A stretch of DNA of 64,000 nt, from assembly GCA_001560915.1 (NCBI GenBank), contig CP014214.1:930001-994000 (forward strand), given 5' to 3'. Source of the stretch: a methanogenic archaeon ISO4-H5. Its GTDB lineage: Archaea > Thermoplasmatota > Thermoplasmata > Methanomassiliicoccales > Methanomethylophilaceae. The notes beneath the pieces were generated by a model, which did not search any database, had not been told where the DNA came from, and was given only the letters and a program-made list of their open reading frames with translations. Position numbers and translations under genes: made by a program. The stretch's first letter is position 1. The number at the start of each line of letters is the position of its first letter. This document shows, piece by piece, positions 2,502-39,616 of the stretch.

Positions 2502-3077
2502 ATGGATAACCCGATAATAATACAACATAACTTTGACGCTAAACAGTTCTCAAAACTATTTGCGATGTATACCTATGGATGTAAGCCATATGATCATTGC
2601 AACAGATGTTTGAAGAAATATTTCAGCAAAAAATTCAACTCTAAAAATCCATTTTTTAATGAAGAAACAAATTTAGAGCTCGATGAATTTTCCAACAAAA
2701 AATGGGATGCAATATATGTTTGTGGAGTGAGGAAAGGTTACTGGAGTGACAAAAAAGAACAGGTTTATCCTCACAATGTTCATTTTGCCATTATTCCGGC
2801 AGTTAGAAAAACCGATTCGTGGGAGTTTGAAAACTGGAAGGTTACTGTACAGAACGGAGTCATCGAACCGGTTCCTTCAGAAAGCCAACTGGATAAAAGG
2901 TTTAGCGATTTTCCTAAAGAATGTACCACCTGTCGTATATATCGCTGGGCAGTCACACATTATAAAAACCAGTTAGATGGGCTAGATATAGAAAAAACAC
3001 GTCGTGACGCAGAAATACACGTATCAAATCATCAAAAATCGGTTAAGATGCGTTTAGAGAAAATTAAAAAAATATGA
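2502..3077 (+). CDS. Uncharacterised Cys-rich protein, possible zinc-binding
   Basis: This 191-residue protein is not recognised. It has a CKPYDHCNRC cluster near residues 27-36 and a CTTC pair near residue 141, which together could bind one zinc ion. The C-terminal 40 residues are strongly charged and probably helical. It starts six bases after the preceding unknown gene, so the two are likely co-transcribed. About 180 bases with an inverted repeat separate it from dndC. DndB, the usual dnd regulator, is missing here, but nothing in this sequence shows a DndB-like fold, so a regulatory role would be speculation. Confidence 0.6.
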   Translation: MDNPIIIQHNFDAKQFSKLFAMYTYGCKPYDHCNRCLKKYFSKKFNSKNPFFNEETNLELDEFSNKKWDAIYVCGVRKGYWSDKKEQVYPHNVHFAIIPAVRKTDSWEFENWKVTVQNGVIEPVPSESQLDKRFSDFPKECTTCRIYRWAVTHYKNQLDGLDIEKTRRDAEIHVSNHQKSVKMRLEKIKKI

Positions 3078-3174
3078 TGTATTTACCTATCAATATAATA
3101 GGTAAAATGTTCAACCTAGAATTTAAAAATGGAATAGGCCGTCAAGATTTGAAAATGATTGATGAGATGAATCT

Positions 3175-3215
3175 TTTGACAACAATGCGGGTTTGTCAAA
3201 GGAGATCTTTTATTT
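3175..3215 (+). promoter_or_regulatory. Candidate promoter/operator for dndCDE
   Basis: TTTGACA at 3175-3181 and TGTCAAA at 3194-3200 form a 7-bp inverted repeat. An AT-rich TTTTATTTATG stretch that could serve as a TATA box follows about 10 bases later, some 45 bases before the dndC start. The placement fits an operator-promoter pair, but the regulator is unknown. Confidence 0.35.
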
Positions 3216-3255
3216 ATGAGAAAGCGATAGGTATCTGATTTGGGATGGGACAAAG

Positions 3256-4554
3256 ATGGTAAATTCGAAAGGCATCATTGCTGAATTACGGGAGGAGTAC
3301 CTGAATAGTACTCGTCCATGGATTATTGGATTTAGCGGTGGAAAAGATTCCAGCTGTTTAATTCAGTTAGTTTATGAAATGCTTAAGAGTTTAAGTCCTA
3401 CTCAACGTACCCATATTGTTCACGTTCTTTCCACAAATACGATGGTTGAAACACCACATGTTGCAATTCGCCTCAAGGACATGTGTGAAAGAATCCAAAA
3501 AGGTGCTGAAAGGGATGGATTGCCCCTTGATGTGAAGCTTTTAAGACCGAAAATCACAGATACATTTTGGGTAAATTTGATTGGTAGAGGTTATCCTTCA
3601 CCCAACAAATGGTTCAGATGGTGTACGAGTCGTTTGAAAATAGAGCCCATGGATAACTATGTTTATGAAAACGTCAAACAAAATGGCGAAGTATTGATAC
3701 TTCTGGGTACCAGGAAGGCTGAAAGTTCTAACCGTAAAAGAAGTCTCGAAAAACATGAGATTGAAGGCACAAAACTTAGAAAACACGGCTCGATTAAAGG
3801 TGCATTTGTATATGCGCCCCTGGAAAACTTATCTACCGAAGAAGTATGGGAGTACCTCAAGACTGAAAATCCGGGTTGGGGTGGAACAAACGAAGAATTG
3901 ATTCGTCTTTATGCCGGCGAATCCTCAGATATTTCATTTATAATGAATTCAGCAGCTCCGCCCTCGGGAACCAGTAGGTTTGGGTGCTGGACATGCACGG
4001 TAGTAGATAAAGATCATGCAATACAGGCACTCATCGATGAAGGTCATACAGAATACATTCCCATGCAAAAATTCAGGGATAAATTGAGGCGCATTCGCGA
4101 TGATCCTGAATACCGTGAACAGTATCGTAAGAATCAGCGTTTGGACAAGTTGTATGACGAATTCTATGCTGTAAAGACTCTTGGCGGAGAGCGTACAGGG
4201 AAAGAAGCATTGGGTCCTTTCAAAATGAGTGTTCGTCACGAATTGTTATCAGAATTATTGCAGATACAGACGGATCTGAGGCAATATGAACCACGTGCTG
4301 AATTGATCACTCCAGAAGAAATCAATGCAATCAAACTTGCTTGGATTTATGACGGTGACAGTACGGATACTCTAGAAGAGATTGTTCATGATCACTCTGG
4401 AAAAACCGATTTAGATAATCTGATTGATCGTCTTCTTGCAGTTGAACATGATATGTCAGATATTTCAAGAAAAATAGGTATTTATGGAAAATTAGAGAAG
4501 GCCATCCGCGAATACACAATAACTACTTTCTCCAACGAGGAGGTTAAAAAATGA
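3256..4554 (+). CDS. dndC: DNA phosphorothioation protein DndC (PAPS-reductase-like)
   Basis: DndC is an ATP pyrophosphatase of the PAPS reductase family that activates the DNA backbone for sulfur insertion. The 432-residue product has the PP-loop SGGKDS at residues 27-32, the family block GYPSPNKWFRWCTSRLK with a conserved Cys, and FGCWTCTVVDKDH in the second half. The cysteines are consistent with the iron-sulfur cluster known in DndC. Its stop overlaps the dndD start by four bases (ATGA), so the two are translationally coupled. The sulfur donor DndA is not in the window, so a housekeeping cysteine desulfurase or a dndA elsewhere must supply sulfur. Confidence 0.92.
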   Translation: MVNSKGIIAELREEYLNSTRPWIIGFSGGKDSSCLIQLVYEMLKSLSPTQRTHIVHVLSTNTMVETPHVAIRLKDMCERIQKGAERDGLPLDVKLLRPKITDTFWVNLIGRGYPSPNKWFRWCTSRLKIEPMDNYVYENVKQNGEVLILLGTRKAESSNRKRSLEKHEIEGTKLRKHGSIKGAFVYAPLENLSTEEVWEYLKTENPGWGGTNEELIRLYAGESSDISFIMNSAAPPSGTSRFGCWTCTVVDKDHAIQALIDEGHTEYIPMQKFRDKLRRIRDDPEYREQYRKNQRLDKLYDEFYAVKTLGGERTGKEALGPFKMSVRHELLSELLQIQTDLRQYEPRAELITPEEINAIKLAWIYDGDSTDTLEEIVHDHSGKTDLDNLIDRLLAVEHDMSDISRKIGIYGKLEKAIREYTITTFSNEEVKK

Positions 4555-26604: not shown

Positions 26605-26707
26605 GAATCAGTCTATAGAAACTCGATTTAAAGAAATATGGTACTATAACGAAGTGTGTGGAAATCGATTGGTTGATTGAGTTGTCTTTTGGTCAATCAG
26701 ATTTCAG

Positions 26708-26758
26708 TTTCGGTCACTTTCGGTACTTTCGGTGACCTCCCCCTGTGAACTTTATATA
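26708..26758 (+). promoter_or_regulatory. Left end and promoter of the first tnpB, shared with the second
   Basis: This stretch contains three CTTTCGGT-like direct repeats, a GACCTCCCCCT block and the TATA box CTTTATATA, about 25 bases before the tnpB start. Nearly the same 51 bases occur, reverse-complemented, before the second tnpB at 39133-39183. Conservation outside the coding region marks it as the element's functional left end. Confidence 0.75.
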
Positions 26759-26782
26759 CTTCTAAACAACGTATGTCAAACG

Positions 26783-28048
26783 ATGCCATATCGTACCGTG
26801 AAGATTCAGCTCTTCCCTAAACCCGAACAGGAGAAGAAGCTCTTACTGACCCTGCATGCCTGCAGGGCCACCTACAACGATCTCAACGAGTACTGCAGGG
26901 ACTTCACTAAAAGATACGATGAATGGCGCGAGAGCATGGGTGTACAAGAGGGCGATGATGCTTCGCTGTACGAAACGGATACCAACCCTCTTCCGAGATT
27001 CCCTTCGGAATTCGAACTAGTTACCAAAGCGGGAGAGTTCAGGGAGATCAATCTCTGGAGGAGAGAGGCATACAGCGTGGCCGTAAGGGAGGTCGGATGC
27101 AGGATACACAGGGCATACCAGCGTTGGTTCGATTCTCTGGTCGATGATTCTTCCGCAGGTCTGCCGAGATTTAGATCGGAAGGAAAGTACGATTCGTTCA
27201 CTTACCCTGCTTATGAACAATACTACTTGGATACCCAAGGATTATTCAAGGGAAAGAAACCGCGCATGTTCCTCGGAGGCGTAGGCTGGGTAAGGGCTTC
27301 CAATAACAGCATCATCAAAAGAGTTCCCACTAATTGCATGAAACAGGCTGTGGTATCCAGGAAGAAGATGGGAAAATCCAACAAATGGTACATCACGATC
27401 TTCTGCGAATGTCTCGAGATACCCGACAATCGTACCTGGTACATGGATGCGGAAACTCCCGACCCCGTTGGTCTCGACCTGGGTGCCAGGAGAGTGGCAA
27501 CACTCACAGACGGCACGGTGGTCGAGAACCACCGTACCATGAGGAAGAACGAGAAGAGGATGGCGAAGATTCAGCGCAAGATCTCCAAGGCCGAGGAAGG
27601 TTCGGAGGAACGCAGGAAATATCTGGGTCATATGAATCATCTCCTGAAGAGGATCGAAGACAGCAAGAACGATCTTCTGCAGAAAGCCACGAGATCGATT
27701 GTTCAGAATCGCACGAAAATCTTCGTGGAGGACCTTTCCGTCAGAGATCTCCTCGATCTCCAAGACAACAAAGAAACAAGGAAACTGTTCCGCGATGCGA
27801 GCGCGGGGACGTTCATGAGACTGCTCAGATACAAGGGGGAGGAAACCGGGTCTGAGATAGTTCCAGTGAATCCCGCCTACACGAGCAGGATCTGCACCAA
27901 ATGCGGAAGGCTGAACGAGCCGTTCAGCGAAGAGACCTTCCATTGCAGATTCTGCGGTTTCACCAAACACCGTGACGACAACGCATGCGAGAACGTACTT
28001 AGACGCGGGATGGGGTTCGACATCCTTGGCACGTCACCGATTGCCTGA
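26783..28048 (+). CDS. tnpB: TnpB-type RNA-guided nuclease (IS1341/IS605 OrfB)
   Basis: The 421-residue protein begins MPYRTVKIQLFPKPEQEKKL, the TnpB N-terminus. RuvC-like catalytic residues are present: Asp in GLDLGARRVATL, Glu in FVEDLSVRDL and Asp in KHRDDNACENV. A four-Cys zinc finger, CTKCGR and CRFCG, sits between the last two. ATG 26783 is preferred over upstream starts because it follows the TATA box at leaderless distance. TnpB proteins are guided by a right-end RNA (omega RNA). All catalytic residues are intact, so the nuclease may be active. Confidence 0.92.
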   Translation: MPYRTVKIQLFPKPEQEKKLLLTLHACRATYNDLNEYCRDFTKRYDEWRESMGVQEGDDASLYETDTNPLPRFPSEFELVTKAGEFREINLWRREAYSVAVREVGCRIHRAYQRWFDSLVDDSSAGLPRFRSEGKYDSFTYPAYEQYYLDTQGLFKGKKPRMFLGGVGWVRASNNSIIKRVPTNCMKQAVVSRKKMGKSNKWYITIFCECLEIPDNRTWYMDAETPDPVGLDLGARRVATLTDGTVVENHRTMRKNEKRMAKIQRKISKAEEGSEERRKYLGHMNHLLKRIEDSKNDLLQKATRSIVQNRTKIFVEDLSVRDLLDLQDNKETRKLFRDASAGTFMRLLRYKGEETGSEIVPVNPAYTSRICTKCGRLNEPFSEETFHCRFCGFTKHRDDNACENVLRRGMGFDILGTSPIA

Positions 28049-28159
28049 ATTACCGAGGCGGAAGCCGAAGTGCGAAAAAACTGTGACGGGTGTGAGAATT
28101 CATTTCCACACACTTCGTTATAGTACCTAGATTTCCTGCTGGATCCCCACAGTTTCTGA

Positions 28160-28374
28160 ATTCCGAAAAAATGTGACATGTAACAAATTTTCGGAATAGG
28201 AATCCGAGAAGACGGATCAGAGCGCCATGCGCATGACGTTATCGTTGCGGATGACGCCGTCACCAATCATCTGCAGACAGCGGTAGTAATCGGTCATACC
28301 TTCACGGAGGTAGGCTTTGAAGGCCCTCTGGTTGTGATAGTACACGTTAAGATAGACTTCTGAGCATCCTTTCT
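28160..28374. repeat. Upstream copy of a tandem 215-base duplication
   Basis: This block, starting with ATTCCGAAAA and its inverted complement TTTTCGGAAT at 28188-28197, is repeated 224 bases later at 28384-28598. The two copies differ at scattered positions, so the duplication is not fresh. The copy carries the tail of the GNAT gene. Confidence 0.85.
28217..28374 (-). pseudogene. Duplicated 3' tail of the GNAT acetyltransferase gene
   Basis: On the minus strand this encodes the last 50 or so residues of the acetyltransferase at 28441-28929, ending in the same RNDNVMRMAL-type sequence and stop. The homology ends abruptly at 28374, where the preceding codons of the full gene are missing. It has no start of its own and cannot be functional. 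Confidence 0.85.
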
Positions 28375-28383
28375 CGCTCCTCT

Positions 28384-28598
28384 ATTCCGAAAAAATGTGA
28401 CATGTAACAAATTTTCGGAATAGGGATCCGAGAAGACGGTTCAGAGCGCCATGCGCATGACGTAATCGTTGCGGATGACGCCGTCGCCGATCATCTGTAG
28501 ACAGCGGTAGTAATCGGTCATCCCCGCCCTAACGTAGGCTTTGAAGGCCCTCTGGTTGTGATAGTACACGTTGAGGTAGACTTCTGAGCATCCATTCT
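28384..28598. repeat. Downstream copy of the tandem duplication
   Basis: This copy spans the palindromic element (ATTCCGAAAA at 28384-28393, TTTTCGGAAT at 28412-28421) and the 3' third of the intact GNAT gene. The inner bases GTGACATGTAAC also form a dyad, so the whole 38-base element is an extended palindrome, possibly a terminator or protein-binding site at the gene's 3' end. Confidence 0.85.
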
Positions 28599-28929
28599 CG
28601 CGGGCTATGTCGAACATGCTGAGGAGTGCCTCGTGACCCAATCCCTTGCCTCTGAAACGGGGTTCCAGGTACAGTTTGTTGATGTAGAACCTGCCGTCGT
28701 CCTGGATGTGGTAAGAATAGAGCCCCAGGCGTTCGCCGTCCTTGTAGACGTATCCGAACTCGTAGCCGTGAGAGATGGATTCCCTGATGGCATCAGGATT
28801 GGTCCAGGCGGAGAAGATGTACTCCGCCTCCTCAGGAGGCATGAGCGGATCGAACACCTCGTGCCAAATCGGGTGCAGATAAGATGACAGTTCCTCGGCG
28901 TCCTGAGGACCCTTCCTTTCGAATTCCAT
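28441..28929 (-). CDS. GNAT family N-acetyltransferase
   Basis: The 162-residue protein has the GNAT acetyl-CoA-binding motif A as LYLEPRFRGKGLGHEALLSMFDIAREN (consensus R/QxxGxG/A as RGKGLG) and the C-terminal strand SEVYLNVYYHNQRAFKAYVRAGM. It probably acetylates a small molecule or a protein N-terminus; the acceptor is unknown. It is about 40 bases downstream of the EamA transporter gene stop and on the same strand. Its 3' end is duplicated downstream. Confidence 0.9.
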   Translation of the reverse strand: MEFERKGPQDAEELSSYLHPIWHEVFDPLMPPEEAEYIFSAWTNPDAIRESISHGYEFGYVYKDGERLGLYSYHIQDDGRFYINKLYLEPRFRGKGLGHEALLSMFDIARENGCSEVYLNVYYHNQRAFKAYVRAGMTDYYRCLQMIGDGVIRNDYVMRMAL

Positions 28930-37775: not shown

Positions 37776-37829
37776 CTTATCGTATCGTGAACCGTAACGC
37801 CGTATTTATAGCCCGAGTTCGTCAGTTAT

Positions 37830-37925
37830 CAACGAGATGACTGTCGCACTACTGTGCCGGTGCACCTCGGGGCGCCCGGCTATTCCGTCCCTTAGAGCCG
37901 GGACAGGGATGGCCGGCCCATCCCT
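37830..37925 (-). ncRNA. Candidate omega (right-end) RNA of the second TnpB
   Basis: Reading on the minus strand across the tnpB stop, CCCGGCT (37896-37902) pairs with AGCCGGG (37875-37881) around a 13-base loop. A second GC-rich arm with GGTGCACC follows at about 37857-37864. TnpB guide RNAs start inside the gene's 3' end and finish at the element border, which is this position. The exact ends cannot be read from sequence. Confidence 0.4.
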
Positions 37926-39109
37926 TGGATCTTCAGCCTGAGGGCACGTTGGAATACGTTGCGGGATGCATTCACGTCCCGGTCCTCCGTGTACCCGCAG
38001 TGCGGGCACTCATGCACCCTTATGCTAAGACCCTTCTTCACCATGCTTCCGCATTTCGAGCACAGCTGCGACGTATCCTTGGGAGGCACAAGGATTATCT
38101 CGCGACCGGCGCTCGAAGCCTTGTCCTTTATCCTTCTGGTTAGTGCTCCCAGGGATGCGTCGTTGTATCCGTTGGTCATGAACCTGTTCTCCGATTTATT
38201 GCGCAGGGCCTTGACCGACAGATTCTCCATCCCGATGAAATCGTGGTTCTTCACGATGTACGCCGAGATGTTCTCTATGTTGTTCTTCCTGTGGTTCTCT
38301 ATCTTCCCGTATGTGTGATTGAGTTTCGTCTGTAACTTATTGTAATGCTCGGAGCCGTACAGGGCACAGCTCATCTGCTTCTGGATTTTGGCGACCTTCT
38401 TGTACATCCTGCTGAAAATGCGGTCGTTAGGGAATTTGGTGCCGTCGGAAAGGGCGGCGATATTGGAGATGCCCAGATCCACACCCACGGGTCCTTTAAC
38501 AGGGTCAGTGTAGGGCTTGGGTGTCTCCTCGTAGGTTATGCAGGCGTAGTACTCGCAGTGGCTGCCCATGTCCTTCCGTTTGATCGTACAGGTCTTGATC
38601 TTCCCGTCGATCCTTGTCTCCTGGTTATAGCACCTGATGAGCCCGGGGACTTTCCCCAGCCTCAGCATGCGCCTCTTCTTCCCGTTGCGCTTTTCGGTCA
38701 CTATGGAGAAATCCCTCTTGTACACAGGGTAGGTGTATGATCCCGAACCCCCTCCAGTACGGAATCTGGGGAAGTGGTCACCGCGCATCCAGAACCTGTA
38801 AGGTTCGAAGGTCAGCGTCCCGCCTTCTCTCTTGTGGGTATCCAAAGTTTTCTTGCAGGCCCGGAAGACCTGCACGGAGGTGGCCATGAAGGTCATAGCC
38901 AACGCTTCCCCGAGGAATGGCGAATTGTTCCTCATTTTGGTGGTGAGCTTGTTCAGGTCGAACACCGAAGGCAGTTCGTCGGTTTTATTGTACACCTGCT
39001 TGCAAGCGGTCACCAAAGCATTGAAGACGTAGCGGTTTGCCTCGATATTGTGATCAATCACCTTCCTCTGAGCGGAATTCGGTTCGATGCGTACCTTCAG
39101 CGTCTTCAT
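37892..39109 (-). CDS. tnpB: TnpB-type RNA-guided nuclease (IS1341/IS605 OrfB)
   Basis: From ATG 39109 the 405-residue protein begins MKTLKVRIEPNSAQRKVID and has Asp in GVDLGISNIAALSDG, Glu in FIGMENLSVKAL and Asp in EDRDVNASRNV. The zinc finger CSKCGS and CPHCG precedes the last Asp. All RuvC catalytic residues are present. It is only distantly similar to the first TnpB in the window, yet shares its left-end DNA. An ATG 12 bases upstream is possible but leaves the promoter too close. Confidence 0.92.
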   Translation of the reverse strand: MKTLKVRIEPNSAQRKVIDHNIEANRYVFNALVTACKQVYNKTDELPSVFDLNKLTTKMRNNSPFLGEALAMTFMATSVQVFRACKKTLDTHKREGGTLTFEPYRFWMRGDHFPRFRTGGGSGSYTYPVYKRDFSIVTEKRNGKKRRMLRLGKVPGLIRCYNQETRIDGKIKTCTIKRKDMGSHCEYYACITYEETPKPYTDPVKGPVGVDLGISNIAALSDGTKFPNDRIFSRMYKKVAKIQKQMSCALYGSEHYNKLQTKLNHTYGKIENHRKNNIENISAYIVKNHDFIGMENLSVKALRNKSENRFMTNGYNDASLGALTRRIKDKASSAGREIILVPPKDTSQLCSKCGSMVKKGLSIRVHECPHCGYTEDRDVNASRNVFQRALRLKIQGMGRPSLSRL

Positions 39110-39132
39110 GCGTGAAATCACGTGATGTCGGC

Positions 39133-39183
39133 TATATAAAGTTAAGAGGGGGAGGTCGCCGAAAATACCGAAAGTGACCGAAA
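39133..39183 (-). promoter_or_regulatory. Left end and promoter of the second tnpB
   Basis: On the minus strand this reads as repeated TTTCGGT units, GACCTCCCCCT and a TATATA box, ending about 25 bases before ATG 39109. It matches 26708-26758 with only a few differences, although the two tnpB proteins have diverged strongly. Confidence 0.75.
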
Positions 39184-39616
39184 GTGAAGGGATTTTCCTG
39201 TTTTTGTCATTTTTTGCCCATCCTGAGAATAACCCTCCCCTCCTCTTCCGTCCGTCAGGCCGAGAATCTGCACGACCGGACTCTTCTCCGTACGGGCGGT
39301 CTCGCCGTTATTCCGGTATTGTTCATACGTCTGAAACCAGCTTCGTTCTCACTTAGCGAATCGGTATACCCAGACCGTTGAAATCAGGCCCGTTACGGAG
39401 AAAATTCCCATCGTTTTTGGTGCTTTTGACAGGCATTCCGTTCTCACTTAACTGAAATCGGCCCGGATACCGTTCATGAACTCCTCAGGAATCTCCCGAA
39501 AGCGATAACTGAGAACGAGACCGACCCATCCGGAAACCGTATTTCTTCCCAAAATCTGTCGGAGTTTCCTCCATAAATGTCGAACTCAAGATATAGTGCG
39601 TCTGCGATGGACATGC
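39184..39616. other. Intergenic region with GTTCTCACTTA repeats, no gene seen
   Basis: No convincing gene is present. GTTCTCACTTAGCGAATCGG occurs near 39343-39362 and GTTCTCACTTAACTGAAATCGG near 39430, with an inverted relative (CGATAACTGAGAACG) near 39505. These could be binding sites or worn element ends; the evidence is limited to the repeats themselves. Confidence 0.4.

Follow-up and report, generated by a model that had tools for sequence, protein, structure and literature searches.

The gene tnpB encodes an RNA-guided DNA-cutting nuclease and is the ancestor of CRISPR Cas12. Prokaryotic TnpBs have been stated to occur only in insertion sequences (IS) of the IS200/605 and IS607 families, a restriction for which the authors ask the reason (PMC10711439), and TnpB-only elements have been described as having neither terminal inverted repeats (TIRs) nor target-site duplications (TSDs) (PMC3627910). 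Fanzors, in eukaryotes, are spread through many transposon families and are found in TIR/TSD transposons, with both the TIR and the TSD predicted to lie within the guide-RNA scaffold (PMC10711439). The present analysis concerns a 64,000-bp stretch, hereafter the window, from the genome of the methanogenic archaeon ISO4-H5, a member of the Methanomethylophilaceae (contig CP014214.1, positions 930,001 to 994,000), in which a 1,488-bp unit consists of one intact tnpB gene between 26-bp perfect TIRs.

Among the described systems, the Fanzor1 and Fanzor2* elements of eukaryotic DDE-type transposons (PMC3627910, PMC10711439) resemble this unit in that a TnpB-type nuclease is the only gene in a non-autonomous transposon with TIRs and TSDs, and in that a TIR is predicted to form part of the guide-RNA scaffold, as is proposed here (for Fanzors the TSD as well). 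They differ in that the unit carries an archaeal TnpB, ISL3-type ends and a proposed pseudoknot to the element terminus, within an RNA that is predicted from sequence. No prior report of TnpB in ISL3-type ends, in a mobile insertion cassette or in a TIR/TSD unit was found in the open-access literature, ISfinder and subscription papers being outside the search.

The tnpB unit and its copies in the genome

The original prediction, that tnpB is enclosed by exact 26-bp inverted repeats, was confirmed, and the standard IS605 ends that would have spoken against its interpretation are not present. The repeats are still 94% identical when extended to 31 bp, and shuffled windows gave no repeat like the 26-bp TIR, even at 3 mismatches; a chance origin was rejected on these grounds. 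The encoded protein of 421 amino acids (aa) matches the guided_TnpB family NF040570 (193.9 bits versus a cut-off of 100) and the Pfam families OrfB_IS605 and Cas12f1-like_TNB, and it is similar to the solved ISDra2 TnpB structure 8bf8 (E=1e-20). Its RuvC residues D232, E316 and D398 and its zinc-finger cysteines are invariant in the five rows of the alignment, and it thus combines the family membership, RuvC D/E/D triad and zinc finger of a TnpB RNA-guided nuclease. Sequence comparison places TnpB under purifying selection, with pairwise ratios of nonsynonymous to synonymous substitution (dN/dS) of 0.09-0.18 among seven copies, copy D being taken without its intron.

The 1.94-Mb genome of ISO4-H5 contains the TIR at ten ends, corresponding to five units (A to E, Table 1), all with tnpB. 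A sixth unit, F, has a variant TIR around a TnpB that is 90% identical. When unit C and one copy of its TSD are removed, an uninterrupted 211-codon frame is restored across the junction; together with the TSDs, this serves in place of an empty site. A further copy, in RUG10898, has an A-type left TIR and an F-type right TIR (TSD TAGCGCGG, 8/8), and the ends of tnpB units therefore appear to recombine. Copy D (L011, ~2565-4510) contains a group II intron (maturase TIGR04416, RF02001) on the opposite strand of its tnpB, which is broken.

Table 1. Features of the tnpB unit (window positions) and location of the units in the ISO4-H5 genome (genome positions, units B to F)
Feature	Coordinates	Strand	Remarks
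Unit A (window copy)	26640..28127
Left TIR GGTACTATAACGAAGTGTGTGGAAAT	26640..26665	+	ISL3-type; GG[CT][CT]CT-N10-G[AT]GTGG matched except position 4
Left subterminal hairpin TGATTGA...TCAATCA	26674..26699	+	Conserved among A-type copies
GGTCAC...GTGACC inverted repeat and TTTCGG repeats, upstream of promoter	26712..26737	+	Common to other tnpB elements of the genome
Archaeal TATA-like box TTTATATA	26751..26758	+	~25 bp ahead of tnpB start; from sequence, function putative
tnpB, 421 aa	26783..28048	+	RuvC triad D232/E316/D398 and CxxC...CxxC zinc finger intact
Last ~90 tnpB codons	27773..28045	+	Synonymous divergence strongly reduced; proposed omegaRNA-coding overlap
Hairpin GGATG-GGGTTCGA-CATCC, loop GGTTC	28008..28025	+	Proposed pseudoknot partner of element terminus
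Right-end hairpin	28081..28124	+	Upstream arm 28081-28094 pairs with right TIR
Right TIR GGTACTATAACGAAGTGTGTGGAAAT	28102..28127	-	Exact inverse of left TIR
Expected guide segment	28128..28147	+	First ~20 bases beyond element, if omegaRNA scaffold ends at TIR; by TnpB/Fanzor precedent
Unit B	269810-271297		8-bp TSD CGTATTTG, 8/8
Unit C	1293430-1294916		8-bp TSD ATGAAGGT, 8/8
Unit D	1890197-1893626		8-bp TSD GGTCACTT, 8/8
Unit E	708544-710030		7-bp duplication GTATCTA
Unit F	1881527-1883011		Variant TIR GGTTCTTTGACGAATTGAGTGGG; 8-bp TSD GTTACTCG, 8/8

It is hardly credible that the unit is a standard IS200/IS605 or IS1341 element flanked by repeats merely by chance. With such elements it shares a TnpB of the guided_TnpB family, an omegaRNA-like 3' end of the gene and a hairpin near the right end. 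However, TnpB-only elements of the IS605 type have neither TIRs nor TSDs (PMC3627910), whereas here the 26-bp TIRs stand at the ends of five copies, 8-bp TSDs are found at sister copies, no conserved insertion-site motif is seen, and no gene for the Y1 transposase TnpA (PF01797) was found either in the element or elsewhere in the genome; in the family, TnpA is present in 2 of 102 genomes.

Two further observations were made in the window. A second tnpB family of this genome, with units of ~1.78 kb, is represented at 37808-39590 (minus strand) and at L114, L116 and L117; its units end in CTTGAGTTCGACATTTAT / ATAACTGTCGAACTCGGG, a possible TIR, and one copy has a 7/8 TSD. Directly to the right of unit A, at 28160-28601, lies a tandem 218-bp duplication (93%) of the 3'-terminal part of a GNAT acetyltransferase gene, hairpin included.

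Relationship to ISL3-family transposons

The type of the host element is indicated by the genome G033, of a related genus, where the same TIR apart from scattered substitutions (GGTTCTCTAACGAAGTGTGTGGA) surrounds, together with the 8-bp TSD CTAACCAT, a 415-aa ISL3 transposase (NF033550, 246 bits versus a cut-off of 180). Read by eye, the ISL3 ISs of the family and the tnpB units have in common the motif GG[CT][CT]CT-N10-G[AT]GTGG at fixed spacing as well as 8-bp TSDs, the latter being present at units B, C, D and F and at the RUG10898 copy. The suggestion that an older palindromic element captured tnpB is thereby supported, with ISL3, an unrelated transposase family, as the host type. Copies of the repeat without tnpB, which had been expected to reveal such a host, do exist in relatives, in the form of the G033 IS, but not in ISO4-H5, where no TIR copy without tnpB and no empty miniature inverted-repeat transposable element (MITE) was found. 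The genome does carry two identical ISL3 ISs elsewhere, their TIR being related but of a different sub-type. Solo TIRs in G022 and G023 were rejected as informative copies, these being contig ends or remnants.

Since the unit does not encode an ISL3 transposase (PF01610 / NF033550), tnpB being its sole gene, it is an ISL3-type non-autonomous cassette and not an ISL3 IS. The match of its TIRs and TSDs to ISL3, together with the lack of a detectable Y1 TnpA in the genome, leads us to read it as an ISL3-type mobile insertion cassette (MIC) without a transposase, which is probably moved by an ISL3 transposase acting in trans. MICs carry a passenger gene between IS ends and no transposase. The tnpB unit has this same architecture, but what it carries is an RNA-guided nuclease, and the guide RNA of this nuclease appears to make use of the IS end. 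From ISL3 ISs it differs by the missing transposase, by the presence of tnpB and by a right TIR that folds onto an upstream arm, a fold not seen at ISL3 IS ends.

With tnpB as the only gene of the unit, one may ask whether the unit is a new kind of TIR element that TnpB itself transposes. We regard this as very improbable: TIR and TSD length match those of ISL3 ISs encoding a DDE transposase of their own, and TnpB appears not to read the TIR, because A-type and F-type TIRs are accompanied by nearly the same TnpB.

The right end and a predicted omegaRNA

Over the last 90 codons of tnpB the synonymous divergence (pS) is 0.084 versus 0.382 elsewhere (0 of 20,000 permutations), while the nonsynonymous divergence (pN) in these codons is ordinary. 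Because amino-acid change is ordinary there, the low pS argues for a constraint at the RNA level rather than for gene conversion, and the suppression of synonymous change is as expected if these codons also encode omegaRNA.

In nearly all units the right TIR is able to pair with an arm just upstream. The median pairing energy is -15.0 kcal/mol for right ends, versus -4.3 for left ends and -5.3 for the ends of ISL3 ISs (p=9e-6 with one unit per family), and arms swapped between families pair worse than their own (mean -9.4 versus -15.6; 0 of 20,000 permutations). In a second hairpin, located ~110 nt upstream, the loop is the complement of the bases that end the element, over 5 bp in D, E, F, G21 and G22 and over 7 bp in G77. 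In the window copy this loop, GGTTC, is complementary to the GAACC at which sister copies end, while its own terminus, GTACC, gives one mismatch. Given that the right TIR pairs upstream in most TIR types and that ISL3 IS ends do not, the TIR seems to be built into the omegaRNA; hairpin and pseudoknot together suggest, but do not prove, that the end of the element is also the end of the omegaRNA scaffold.

These results also bear on the alternative that an ordinary IS605-type tnpB was inserted in an ISL3-type MITE, the TIR unit and the tnpB unit being separate elements. The ~52-bp upstream module that is common to other tnpB elements of the genome looks like part of an IS605-like left end, in agreement with such an insertion. 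Nevertheless, all six copies in the genome (6/6) have tnpB and no empty MITE was found, the TSDs lie outside the TIRs, and in the right-end fold the TIR is joined to the putative omegaRNA. The alternative is therefore judged quite improbable; it may describe the origin of the element and not its present state.

Spread in the Methanomethylophilaceae and the homing question

TnpB loci were scanned for flanking TIRs plus TSDs using a sum score, for which the shuffled null gave best sums of 22-23. Many of the related genomes are draft assemblies, and the TIR families were defined by eye from the scan output. Sums of 25-32 were obtained for units B, C, D and F, the RUG10898 copy, G016 (two), G090, G057, G059 (two), G052, G074, G077 and a further locus, at 14 kb, of the ISO4-H5 genome. 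TnpBs that are ~25-38% identical thus occur in the same architecture in G016, G090, G057, G059, G052, G074 and G077 and at one more locus of the genome itself. The TIR sequences vary between groups and part of them are not recognisably ISL3-like; in the family, related TnpBs are associated with about ten further types of TIR that have 8-bp TSDs. For TIR type GGCTTTGAGGAAA, a search of six genomes revealed no autonomous IS. Among TnpB loci from outside the family, 1 of 20 passed the scan. We see even chances that the TnpB elements of the Methanomethylophilaceae, a family with almost no TnpA, switched to DDE transposases and incorporated the captured TIR, of about ten types, into their omegaRNA, as a prokaryotic counterpart of the Fanzor1 association.

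The locus from outside the family, L155 (G172), has a TnpB with TIR TCCGTCGGAATGACGGAATCGGTG and TSD ATCATGAT, and is possibly an independent capture; its right TIR showed no pairing with upstream sequence. Four species of another genus (L093, L094, L095 and L098) have a TnpB at one and the same orthologous locus, between conserved flanks; this TnpB is possibly domesticated. Five TnpBs in three genomes (L090, L135 and L139 in G059, L091 in G055, L096 in G057) have an in-frame TAG at the identical position, DRD-TAG-NAAC, just past the third RuvC aspartate. These archaea may read TAG as pyrrolysine, and a TnpB with pyrrolysine beside its active site is possible.

In the mechanism that we propose for the cassette, an ISL3 DDE transposase supplied in trans would cut at the TIRs and insert the unit via an 8-bp staggered cut. 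The TATA-like box would drive transcription of tnpB, and the transcript's 3' end, including the right TIR, would more likely than not constitute the omegaRNA scaffold, closed by a hairpin with the right TIR as its 3' arm and by the loop-to-terminus pseudoknot. The guide would be the sequence just beyond the right TIR, so that each insertion would be re-aimed at the site it occupies. Guided by the right flank, TnpB would therefore target the uninserted site and cut copies of it, repair from the inserted chromosome copy spreading or restoring the element. The steps as far as the omegaRNA scaffold have indirect support. We put forward the last two steps, the right-flank guide and the cutting of the uninserted site, from precedent and more tentatively, somewhat short of even odds; a role in retention or drive is what we infer from TnpB and Fanzor precedent.

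Several results weigh against the cassette and its predicted RNA as described. At the window copy itself no TSD is visible (flanks AGAAATAT / TAGATTTC). No ISL3 or other autonomous partner with the exact TIR was found in the ISO4-H5 genome in a search to 3 mismatches. Taken singly, G016, the own-genome locus at 14 kb, G59 and G74 show right-hairpin pairing that is not above shuffles, the pseudoknot amounts to just 3 bp in several families, the drop at synonymous sites is weak in the G090 copies, and an Rfam scan of the locus gave no matching family. Finally, no convincing motif resembling a target-adjacent motif (TAM) was present in the left flanks, TSDs or right flanks of 14 insertions, a result that makes the homing step less secure: of the predicted roles of TnpB as cargo or as homing nuclease, the former holds, the latter being hypothetical.

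The lack of a TAM-like motif at insertion sites also speaks for a TnpB that is a passive or host-serving passenger, kept for another reason such as regulation or defence and having no part in element retention, as does the possible domestication suggested by the single orthologous locus in one genus. The catalytic triad is retained, however, across mobile copies with the low dN/dS given above, and the omegaRNA-like 3' constraint extends to the element end. A mere passenger is for these reasons unlikely.

The archaeal cassettes associate TnpB with DDE-type ends, are present as several diverged copies in a single complete genome, and would be an exception to the restriction of TnpB to IS200/605 and IS607. 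A TIR that doubles as part of a guide RNA has so far been described only for eukaryotic Fanzors; in these rumen-type methanogenic archaea the right TIR appears to do likewise. The use of TnpB to a cut-and-paste element, and the adaptation of its guide RNA to new transposon ends, hereby become directly testable. If the switch to DDE transposases in the Methanomethylophilaceae is true, TnpB would serve DDE transposons as an RNA-guided module for retention or drive.
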